57,814 bases of DNA. It comes from Sedimenticola sp. GTDB taxonomy: Bacteria; Pseudomonadota; Gammaproteobacteria; Chromatiales; Chromatiaceae. The translations under genes were made by a program, and so were the position numbers. The DNA lies in NCBI GenBank assembly GCA_011051655.1, contig DRKS01000076.1, forward strand, positions 1-57,814, given 5' to 3'. The notes beneath the pieces are model-generated. The model was not told the origin of the DNA, searched no databases, and saw only the letters and a list, made by a program, of their open reading frames with translations. Shown here piece by piece: positions 42,378-49,377 of this stretch; the stretch's first letter is position 1, and the number at the start of each line of letters is the position of its first letter.

Positions 42378-42932
42378 ATGCCAAAGAAGTTTATCAAGCG
42401 CTATACGCCAGACAAAGAGACCATTCGCAATCACAAATACCTGCGGATATTCGGCAAGCTCCTGCAGGACCCCAATCTGTGGCACCTGAACCGGCGTTCC
42501 GTATCGGGGGCCTTTGCAGTGGGGCTGTTTTGGGCCTTCATTCCCATCCCGTTTCAGATGGTCACCGCCGCCGCCACCGCCATTCCGGCGCGGGTAAACC
42601 TGCCCATCTCGGTCGCCCTGGTCTGGATCACCAACCCGGTAACCATGCCGCCCATGTTCTATTTCACCTATCTCGTGGGCACCTGGATTTTGAATGAGCC
42701 GGCCCAAGAGGTTGAATTCGAGCTGACCGTGGACTGGCTCATGCACAGCATCAACGGCATCTGGCTGCCCCTCTATCTCGGCAGCCTGATCTGCGCCATT
42801 GTTGCGGCGGCGCTGGGTTATGCGCTCATACGCGGGTATTGGCGCTGGCATGTCGTAAGCCACATGAAGCGGCGGCGCGCAAAATGGGCGCGGACTCATG
42901 CAAAGGAGGATTCGCGGCCGGACGGCCAATGA
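42378..42932 (+). CDS. DUF2062 family membrane protein
   Basis: A 184-residue membrane protein of the DUF2062 family (FAVGLFWAFIPIPFQMVTAAATAIPARVNLPISVAL, TNPVTMPPMFYFTYLVG). Two to three transmembrane helices are visible, and the C-terminus is basic. Function not known. It stops ten bases before a 242-bp mobile element whose other end lies within the convergent lolD gene. Confidence 0.9.
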   Translation: MPKKFIKRYTPDKETIRNHKYLRIFGKLLQDPNLWHLNRRSVSGAFAVGLFWAFIPIPFQMVTAAATAIPARVNLPISVALVWITNPVTMPPMFYFTYLVGTWILNEPAQEVEFELTVDWLMHSINGIWLPLYLGSLICAIVAAALGYALIRGYWRWHVVSHMKRRRAKWARTHAKEDSRPDGQ

Positions 42933-42944
42933 GCCATCAGGTTA

Positions 42945-43186
42945 ACCCGCATTTCTCACCAGGATTTGGATTTTTGGGGCAAGCTGGCGAAGCAGGTTGG
43001 ACGATCGGCCGCCGAAGCATAGCCGTAGCTATGCTTCAAGGCTGATCGTTCAAGATGCGAAGCCAGATTATTCCAAAAACCAAATAGGACAGAGTATAAA
43101 TTAACCGCCATCACCTTATGAGGCTAACTACATTGAATTTCATAAATTTCTCAATTAACCGGGTCCGCCTGGTGAGAAATGCGGGT
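42945..43186. mobile_element. MITE-like element, copy 1
   Basis: A 242-bp element with perfect 19-bp terminal inverted repeats (ACCCGCATTTCTCACCAGG at 42945-42963, reverse complement at 43168-43186), flanked by TA at 42943-42944 and 43187-43188. About 98% identical to copy 2 at 48285-48526 (five internal differences and one at the left end). It has no coding capacity of its own. The centre (43002-43048) folds as a long hairpin with a perfect 10-bp stem (43014-43023 with 43028-43037) and loop CGTA. Its right end supplies the last codons of lolD. TA flanks fit IS630/Tc1-type target duplication. Confidence 0.92.
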
Positions 43187-43858
43187 TAAAACCCCATCGT
43201 CAAGATGCAGCACCCGGTCCATGCGACCGGCCAGCGCCGGGTCATGGGTGACCACCACGAAGCTGGTGCCCTCCTGCCGGTTCAGCTCCAGCATCAGCTC
43301 ATAGACCTGCTGGGCGGTATGGCGGTCCAGATTGCCGGTGGGCTCATCCGCCAGCACACAGCGGGGATGATTCACCAGGGCGCGGGCGATGGCGGCGCGC
43401 TGTCTCTCACCGCCGGAGAGTTCGCCGGGCTTGTGCCCCAGGCGTGCGGCCAGGCCCACCCGCCCCAGCATGTTTGCGGCCCTTTCCCGCGCCGTTGAAA
43501 CCCCGGCCCCGCCGATAAGCAGCGGCATGGCGACATTTTCAAGGGCGCTAAATTCCGGCAGCAGGTGATGAAACTGGTAGACGAAACCGAGGGTGCGGTT
43601 GCGCAGCACCCCCCTTTCCGCCTCACCCAGGCGGATCATATCGGCCCCGTCGATCAACACGGCGCCGGAATCCGCCTTGTCCAGCCCGCCAAGACAATGC
43701 AGCAGCGTGCTCTTGCCCGACCCCGAGGCGCCGACCACGGCGATACACTCACCCGCCCCCACGCTGAGATCCACCCCCTTGAGCACCTCCACCCGCAGGT
43801 CCCCGTCGGCAAAGGTGCGGACCAGGGCCCGGCATTCCAGCACGGCCGGCTCACTCAT
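43151..43858 (-). CDS. lolD: Lipoprotein-releasing ABC transporter ATPase LolD
   Basis: ATPase of the lipoprotein release complex that hands outer-membrane lipoproteins to LolA. Walker A is GASGSGKST (43-51), the LolD-specific segment [12 protein letters not shown] is intact, and [15 protein letters not shown] and [11 protein letters not shown] follow. The 235-residue chain ends in [10 protein letters not shown], ten residues and a stop that lie inside the MITE-like element; removing the element would end the protein at T225. The tail is far from the active site, so function is probably kept. It overlaps lolC by eight bases. Confidence 0.96.
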
Positions 43859-45098
43859 AACGCAGGGCCTCCGCCGGCTGGGTTCGCGCCGCCCGCCAGG
43901 CCGGATAAAGGGTGGCCAGAACGGTCATGATGAAGGCGCCCATGCTGATGATGCCCACATCGCTCCAATGCAGGTCCGAGGGCAGTTCACTGATGTAATA
44001 GATGTTGGCGTCCAGGAAATCGATACCGAAGGTCTTCTCGACCCACTTGACGATTACCTCGAGATTCAATGCCAGCGCGATCCCTCCGGCGATGCCCAGC
44101 AGGGTGCCGATGAGGCCGATGGTGGTCCCCTGCACCATGAAGATGGCCATGATGCTGCGCGGAGAGGCGCCCAGCGTGCGCAGGATGGCGATATCCGCCT
44201 GCTTGTCGGTCACCACCATCACCAGGGTGGAGACGATATTGAACGCCGCCACGGCCACGATCAGGGAGAGGATGATGCCCATCATGCGCTTTTCCATGGC
44301 CAGGGCGCTGAAGAAATTCCGGTGCTGATAGGTCCAGTCGCTGATGCGGTAGCGGCCGGGCAGCCGGTTCGCCAGCTCCCGCGAAACCCGGGGGGCCAGG
44401 TAGAGGTCATCCAGCTTCAGGCGCACCCCGGTCACCGCATCGCCCAGCCGCTGCAGCTTGCGCGCATCCCGCAGATGCACCAGGGCCATGCCCCGGTCAT
44501 ATTCCCCCATGCCGACCTCGAAAATACCCGCCACCGTGAAGCGCTTGAACCGCGGCATGGCGCCGGCGGGGGTGATGGTGGTCTGGGGCGTCACCACCGT
44601 CACCTTGTCTCCGGGCATGACATTCAGGAGATTCGCCAGCTCCCTGCCGATGATGATGCGGTATTTGCCGGGCTCCAGATCCGTCATGGCGCCATACACC
44701 ATGTGTTCCCCCACATCCGACACCCGGGGCTCCAATTCCGGCAGAACGCCCCGCAACACCGCCCCGCTGACATTGGGCCCGTTGGCCAGCATCACCTGCC
44801 CCTCCGCGAAGGGGGCCTCTCCGACCACATGGGGGTGCCCCTTTGCCAGCTCCATCACCTGTTCCCAATTTTTCAATCCGCCGCGCGCGGCCGTAATCGT
44901 GGCGTGAGACGCCATTCCGAGAATCCGTTCACGGACTTCCTTGTGAAAACCGTTCATAACAGAGAGTACGGTGATCAACGCCACCACACCGAGCATAATC
45001 CCCATCATAGAGGTGAGGGAAATGAAGGAGATAAAATGATTACGCCGCTTGGCCCGGGTATAGCGCAATCCGATAAAAAGTTCGAGGGGCTTATACAT
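43851..45098 (-). CDS. Lipoprotein-releasing permease LolC/LolE family
   Basis: A 415-residue MacB-type permease. An N-terminal transmembrane segment ([32 protein letters not shown]), a large periplasmic domain, and three C-terminal transmembrane segments give the LolC/E layout. [17 protein letters not shown] is the family N-terminus. Only one such gene is seen before lolD, and none follows it; E. coli has lolC-lolD-lolE. It may be a single LolF-type permease, or a second copy exists elsewhere. It overlaps lolD by eight bases (ATGAGTGA). Confidence 0.92.
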
Positions 45099-48262: not shown

Positions 48263-48284
48263 GTTTCGATCCTCCGGGAATTTA

Positions 48285-48526
48285 GCCCGCATTTCTCACC
48301 AGGATTTGGATTTTTGGGGCAAGCTGGCGAAGCAGGTTGGACGATCGGCCGCCGAAGCATAGCCATAGCTATGATTCAAGGCTGATCGTTCAAGATGCGA
48401 AGCCAGATTGTTCCAAAAACCAAATAGGACAGAGTATAAATTAACTGCCATCACCTTATGAGGCTAAGTACATTGAATTTCATAAATTTCTCAATTAACC
48501 GGGTCCGCCTGGTGAGAAATGCGGGT
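48285..48526. mobile_element. MITE-like element, copy 2
   Basis: The second 242-bp copy, in the same orientation as copy 1 on the + strand. Its 19-bp ends match except for the first base, G instead of A. TA flanks are at 48283-48284 and 48527-48528. It lies between lepB and DUF4845 in a minus-strand operon, so transcription from lepB must pass through it. Five internal base differences separate it from copy 1, and one of them breaks one pair of the internal hairpin stem (48357-48380). The lepB stop codon uses the last base of the element plus the TA flank. Confidence 0.92.
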
Positions 48527-49377
48527 TAGTCTATGCCTTCGCCAAGCCGCTCCCAGGCAACAGGAAAGCCGGGGCGCTTCGTATCCCAACTCATCCAGAT
48601 TCCAAAGGCCTTGCCCACCAGGTTTTCCTCCGGCACAAACCCCCAGCAACGGCTGTCATTGCTGTTGTCCCGATTATCACCCATGGCGAAATATTTGCCC
48701 TCGGGAACCGTTACGGGGCCCCGCAGCAGTACCTGGCAGCCGGGGGCGAAATCCGGCACCGCGGCCCGCACCAGGATAGCGTGCTCCACGCCATCGAGGG
48801 TCTCCATGCTATACAGTGAGCCGGTTTCACTGGCGCCGGTGCCAATACCGGTATATCGCCCTATCGGCGTCTGGGGCATGGGCCTGCCGTTGATATAGAG
48901 CACCTTGTTCCGATATGAGATCTGATCGCCGGGAATGCCGACCACCCGTTTAATATAGTCAATGGAGGGATTCAGCGGGTACCGGAATACCACGACATCG
49001 CCGCGTTTCGGCTCGCCTATTTCGATGATTTTTTTATTGAGCACCGGCAGGCGGATGCCATAGGCAAATTTGTTGACCAGGATGAAGTCGCCCACCAGCA
49101 GCGTCGGCATCATGGAACTGGAGGGGATGCGGAAGGGCTCGACGAGAAAAGACCGCAACAGCAGCACAATCAGGATGACGGGGAAAAACGACCGGGCGTA
49201 CTCCACCAACACCGGCTCCCGGGTATGCCGCATGATATCTTCCTGGCAGACGCCGTTCTCGGCCTCCTGCGCCGCCAGGGCGCGCCTGCGGGGTGCGAAC
49301 ATCACCGCATCGATCAGCCAGATGCCGCCGGTTATAAAGACAGCCAATACCAGTATTGCAGGGAAATTCAGATCCAT
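48526..49377 (-). CDS. lepB: Signal peptidase I LepB
   Basis: Removes signal peptides of exported proteins at the periplasmic face. Of its 283 residues, the N-terminus has two transmembrane segments (about 5-25 and 63-78). The catalytic serine is S88 in PSSSMMPT, and the catalytic lysine is K143 in IDYIKRVVGIPGD, the same as in E. coli (S90, K145). GDNRDNSNDSRCWGFV is the conserved box E. It follows lepA after 52 bases. The stop codon lies at the edge of the MITE-like element. Confidence 0.96.
   Translation of the reverse strand: MDLNFPAILVLAVFITGGIWLIDAVMFAPRRRALAAQEAENGVCQEDIMRHTREPVLVEYARSFFPVILIVLLLRSFLVEPFRIPSSSMMPTLLVGDFILVNKFAYGIRLPVLNKKIIEIGEPKRGDVVVFRYPLNPSIDYIKRVVGIPGDQISYRNKVLYINGRPMPQTPIGRYTGIGTGASETGSLYSMETLDGVEHAILVRAAVPDFAPGCQVLLRGPVTVPEGKYFAMGDNRDNSNDSRCWGFVPEENLVGKAFGIWMSWDTKRPGFPVAWERLGEGID

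Follow-up and report, generated by a model that had tools for sequence, protein, structure and literature searches.

A 240-bp MITE in a Sedimenticola genome supplies the last ten codons and the stop codon of lolD

The last ten codons of lolD in Sedimenticola sp. (GCA_011051655.1), together with the stop codon, lie within a 240-bp MITE, which very probably inserted at a TTAA site in the end of the gene and turned a 225-aa LolD into one of 235 aa. LolD, the ATPase of the lipoprotein-releasing ABC transporter, is essential. Coordinates below refer to the window, i.e., the whole stretch of 57,814 nt that was analyzed (positions 1 to 57,814 of contig DRKS01000076.1), in which the relevant features are as follows.

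42378 to 42932, plus strand: DUF2062 gene (PF09835), convergent with lolD, its stop ending 9 nt before the left TTAA
42942 to 42945, no strand: target-site duplication TTAA on the DUF2062 side
42946 to 43185, no strand: MITE, 240 bp, with near-full-length copies 96 to 98% identical in the same genome; IS1380-family mobilization probable
42946 to 42963, plus strand: left terminal inverted repeat (TIR)
43151 to 43858, minus strand: lolD, an ORF of 235 aa, lipoprotein-releasing ABC transporter ATPase, TIGR02211 above cut-off
43151 to 43153, minus strand: lolD stop codon TGA, supplied by the element
43154 to 43183, minus strand: ten lolD codons wholly in the element, missing from 109/109 relatives
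43168 to 43185, minus strand: right TIR, which lolD reads as the end of codon 225 followed by RISHQ
43186 to 43189, no strand: target-site duplication TTAA on the lolD side, which covers codon L224 plus base 1 of codon 225
43851 to 45098, minus strand: lolC/E permease gene, the immediate upstream neighbor of lolD (TIGR02212 lolCE, 520.8 bits; cut-off, 362.45)

The junction between lolD and the element

The gene was recognized as lolD by its TIGR02211 score (324.6 bits versus a cut-off of 307.75) and by the adjacent lolC/E gene. The match takes in residues 6 to 225 and 220 of the 221 model positions, ending at residue 225, and a second LolD model, NF008639, gave 301.3, below its cut-off of 360. 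Elsewhere in this genome, the best match to LolD reaches 44% identity, and the assembled sequence thus holds one lolD. The DUF2062 protein encoded on the other side of the element has a weak NCBIfam match (28.5 bits versus a cut-off of 300), which we disregarded.

A preliminary description of this DNA had placed the last ten LolD codons and the stop inside the element, and the codon map agrees: R226 to N235 (43183 to 43154) and the stop codon TGA (43153 to 43151) are entirely element sequence. L224 (TTA) lies outside the element, within the duplicated site, and T225 (ACC, 43186 to 43184) straddles the junction, taking its A from TTAA and its CC from the element. When the flanks are rejoined, they read GTT TTA ACC TGA, which gives a 225-aa LolD ending in ...DDGVLT-stop, 4 nt from the convergent DUF2062 stop. 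The stop thus falls right after T225, as had been proposed, and the empty site is the same whether the duplication is counted as TTAA (4 bp) or as TA only. T225 itself is unchanged by the insertion, since by coincidence the far flank, too, starts with CC.

With the first, site-dependent codon set to ACC, the same ten-residue peptide is encoded in the same frame by 26 of 84 element ends examined from this genome, and 34 of the 84 encode RISHQDLDFWGKLAKQVGRSAAEA in the same frame, this being the other end of the element. The tail peptide therefore belongs to the element, not to lolD.

We propose that the MITE, probably moved in trans by an IS1380-family transposase, would have inserted where the last leucine and threonine codons of lolD create a TTAA (YTAR) site, and would have duplicated that TTAA. 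Translation would then continue from the TTA through the TIR, in a frame open by chance for eleven codons, until it meets the TGA, and the added tail would project beyond the ATPase fold, in a region where the length and sequence of LolD vary freely. The extension is probably tolerated and near-neutral, because the tail would sit in just that region. As the preliminary description had it, the insertion appears not to have broken LolD, the ATPase domain being whole by sequence. The alignment to the solved LolD chain 7v8l_D (233 aa) stops at chain residue 225 and leaves 8 chain residues unaligned, which means that a short unaligned tail is present in that chain too. In the AlphaFold model, the last strand spans residues 223 to 226, and residues 230 to 235 have a pLDDT below 50, a low value that is partly built in since the aligned relatives were trimmed to the matched region.

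The element family and its mobilization

The element has the makings of a MITE. It is too short for a transposase, has perfect 18-nt TIRs, and is bordered by TTAA on either side at lolD, so that TIR and TTAA together form perfect 22-nt inverted repeats (42942 to 42963 and 43168 to 43189). A search of the 3.12-Mb, 103-contig genome for the 18-nt end, allowing up to 2 mismatches, returned 93 matches (45 + 48), and the reversed-pattern control returned 0. Together with the near-full-length copies that are 96 to 98% identical, these counts indicate that the element is not a chance resemblance, and the closeness of the copies makes the element look recent. At least one of the 93 matches (C73:22506) has no YTAR after it and lies inside a called gene, so it probably does not represent an element end. 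Of 369 genomes in the class, 29, this one included, carry the end with YTAR next to it, with 109 ends in one of them (G226) and 114 in another (G291).

Paired ends in this genome are 158, 174, 240 to 241, or 312 bp apart. The flanks of the element ends are almost always YTAR, mostly TTAA in this genome, with CTAG the commonest in G226 and G291. The 4-mers on the two sides are identical in 12 of 17 paired copies here and in 23 of 36 across the three genomes. Of the five nonidentical pairs here, four show a single-base difference and one has no left flank; some of the remaining 13 of the 36 have no YTAR on one side. At the pairs C3:79187, C3:87186, C53:54599, and C6:27142, the outer base of the 4-bp site differs and the central TA agrees, a hint that this base can be contributed by the donor or changed by repair. 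If only TA, the target that the preliminary description had named, were duplicated, the four one-base mismatches would be accounted for but not the agreement of the outer bases where the site is CTAG or TTAG, and the target is better described as a 4-bp YTAR, here TTAA.

The element is likely mobilized by an IS1380-family transposase, as suggested by transposase fragments; no complete IS was seen. Fragments of the IS1380 type (PF13701) lie just inside ends that read TATGGTGAGAAATGCGGG (TATGG...), at C43 and C14, and two positions distinguish this IS end from that of the MITE. Two of the four PF13701 matches pass the Pfam cut-off, and NF033539 matches two of the transposase fragments (1.6e-22 and 3.7e-36), both below the NCBIfam cut-off.

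The TIR contains an ATG (GAGAAATGCGGG), and a few crude gene calls begin inside an element end, e.g., at C44:129. The element may also donate start codons.

LolD relatives and alternative explanations

The LolD relatives (n = 109) comprised 29 found by searching 37 relative genomes, which gave 30 loci including the window's own, and the best 80 of 587 candidate loci. The two sets may share organisms, the relatives belong to other genera, and records nearest to the window's genome may be missing from them. Within this sample, the element-derived ten-residue tail occurs in 0 of 109; the same ten residues in element-free relatives had been named as the finding that would speak against an insertion. 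The proposal that an insertion lengthened LolD by ten residues is thus supported, and we infer the ancestral 225-aa allele from the rejoined flanks and the synteny with these other genera.

That relatives would end at about residue 225 was true in part. The closest relative among those listed, L052 (79% identical over residues 1 to 224), ends in ...LEDGLFV, approximately where the rejoined gene would stop, but others reach as far as 18 residues past L224. The number of residues after the L224 position ranges from 1 to 18 in the relatives, with a median of 3 (110 sequences, the window's included); it is exactly one in 13/109 and at least 11 in 6/109. These tails share no sequence by eye and are unconserved. 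Because the relatives' tails vary in this way, ten extra residues are unremarkable, and the earlier wording that the MITE end "rewrites" the LolD C terminus, correct in that the tail is element sequence, was too strong for a length within natural variation.

The neighborhood is shared as well. A DUF2062-like ORF is present in the lolD locus of 44/109 relatives (weakest, 29 bits) and is convergent with lolD in all 44. The stop-to-stop distance is −59 to +153 nt in 32 of these and 1118 to 2116 nt in the other 12. It is 14 nt in L052 and 218 nt in the window, and the 4 nt of the rejoined locus fits the closer group.

These observations also bear on the possibility that LolD originally ended in a longer tail of different sequence, which the insertion, or an accompanying deletion, replaced. 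Tails of up to 18 residues in relatives, and a lolD overlapping its convergent gene by up to 59 nt in some of them, would allow for it, but TTAA stands on both sides of the element, as a simple insertion without a deletion predicts, and the rejoined flanks yield a clean stop with a 4-nt gap of the kind found in relatives. We therefore regard such a replacement as very unlikely.

Comparably improbable is that the tail was selected, with the element residues improving LolD or a 3′ RNA hairpin protecting the lolD message. Stable 3′ hairpins can protect mRNAs, and the element RNA, folded as the minus (lolD) strand, is a single long and very stable hairpin at the lolD 3′ end (−113.6 kcal/mol; z, −9.04). 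Against selection stand the 96 to 98% identity of the copies, which suggests a recent insertion, the lack of conservation in the LolD tail region, and a scan of positions 42850 to 43300 that found neither terminator-like nor promoter-like sites. On the same scan, we rejected a terminator function for the convergent lolD/DUF2062 pair.

An assembly artifact, in which contigs were misjoined through the repeat to give a chimeric lolD tail, is hardly credible: many contigs of this 103-contig assembly do end within the repeat, but both flanks carry an identical TTAA, lolD and the DUF2062 gene are convergent neighbors in relatives, and a misjoined lolD would still enter an element end, of which 26 in 84 encode the same peptide.

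Stop codons, other host genes, and known systems

An exact landing on the stop codon of a gene reading toward the element was found at 27 of the 90 flanked ends in this genome. When only exact ends were counted against a wider background, landings made up 24/83 ends here (G000), 24/60 in G226, and 15/58 in G291. Pooled over the three genomes, 62 of 188 ends were stop landings versus 31.1 expected (Mantel-Haenszel odds ratio, 4.22; z, 7.55), where both ends of one copy are not independent and the ends examined were 60 of about 109 in G226 and 58 of about 114 in G291. The background consisted of unoccupied YTAR sites with the same four letters, coding sites being excluded; coding YTAR sites are rare, amounting to 15 of the 55 sites outside elements in the window. 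Genes were called by a simple codon-usage script applied alike to ends and background, and the odds ratio stayed at 4.0 to 4.3 with stricter calls from which the weaker ones had been removed.

The idea that the YTAR target alone fully explains the stop landings holds only partly, given the pooled odds ratio of 4.2 against same-letter unoccupied sites. YTAR holds TAA or TAG, insertions elsewhere are likely selected against, and selection alone may be enough to produce the pattern. There was no excess in G226 at CTAG sites facing a gene 3′ end within 150 nt (21:17 versus 37:13), and three of eight strata were not significant on their own, namely, CTAG in G000 (3/11 versus 16/115; p, 0.22), CTAA in G000 (p, 0.17), and CTAA in G291 (p, 0.26). 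For these reasons, we do not claim active stop-codon targeting as shown. We suggest tentatively, and with rather less than even confidence, that the MITE family prefers stop codons via YTAR, that the duplication regenerates the stop, and that the LolD tail represents a landing just before a stop.

A second 240-bp copy at 48286 to 48525, within 48282 to 48529, has TTAG on both sides and lies exactly on the stop of the signal peptidase I gene (48526 to 49377, minus strand), which leaves the signal peptidase I protein unchanged.

Genes that read into an element copy are few: lolD was the one case among 83 flanked ends here, and there were 0 among 60 in G226 and 3 among 58 in G291. Two of the G291 cases are an APP1-type phosphatase gene and a DsrE-like gene running into the element. 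The third is an M90 (MtfA-like) peptidase gene (L326, 2726 to 3670), in which the reading frame runs uninterrupted across a 176-bp copy (180 nt with the CTAG duplication). About 60 residues are added inside the domain, with Pfam positions 2 to 140 before the copy and 150 to 243 after it. Further tail candidates (among them C59:2843, C21:229, C71:52328, C11:130, C40:130, and C92:187) were dropped as antisense frames: when genes were called on the two strands, each of these places proved to have a gene with its start close to the element and its direction of reading outward.

Several bacterial elements described in print, as far as the available extracts of the reports go, invite comparison. In Coxiella burnetii, QMITE1 and QMITE2, with about 50 copies, overlap functional genes at their 3′ ends (pntAA, mutT, nagZ, and others), and in strain Dugway the C-terminal 33 residues of EnhC presumably come from a QMITE2 that lies in frame (PMC5896051). 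The lolD element likewise lies over a gene 3′ end, here with a ten-residue tail that ends inside the element, but it targets YTAR, whereas the direct repeats in that report are 2 to 3 nt for QMITE1 and 7 to 11 nt for QMITE2 and variable in sequence (PMC5896051). Through insertions of the Acinetobacter MITEAba12, as many as 19 residues encoded by the element could become joined to host proteins, and the 3′ end of one gene is fused to 31 bases of the element; MITEAba12 is compared with ISAba12, and the fused gene described lost 398 residues (PMC6382973), whereas LolD stays whole. Rickettsia palindromic elements (RPE) and other bacterial MITEs are described as small mobile repeats whose frames join host proteins, with just under half of 44 RPE insertions in one species lying within genes as in-frame fusions (PMC10969869, PMC2229807). 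The lolD element, by contrast, supplies a tail and a stop; the copy inside the G291 M90 peptidase gene resembles an RPE.

With regard to the target, ISPsp10 (IS5 family) inserted at a TA just before a TAA, and its authors suggest a preference for stop-supplying sites (PMC4133298). In that case the transposase gene gets its stop from the target, whereas here the element supplies the host stop or sits on one. Brucella IS711 shares the consensus target YTAR and is reported to duplicate TA (PMC2266754), whereas 23 of 36 pairs in the present family have the same 4-mer on either side and the neighboring transposase fragment is of the IS1380 type. Among the literature matches listed, we recognized no description of stop-codon landing by IS1380-type MITEs.

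The conclusion of the preliminary description, that elements of this kind can contribute coding sequence, is supported here, and in the extracts available tail donation by bacterial MITEs is already in print (QMITE2/EnhC, MITEAba12, and RPE), lolD being a well-resolved further instance. Here the gain of coding sequence from a mobile element by an essential gene can be followed cleanly, down to the single base at the junction. The stop-codon pattern may be worth more than the LolD case itself, and it makes target choice versus selection testable. If a preference for stop codons is true of this family, it would give the elements a built-in way of spreading through compact genomes without breaking genes.
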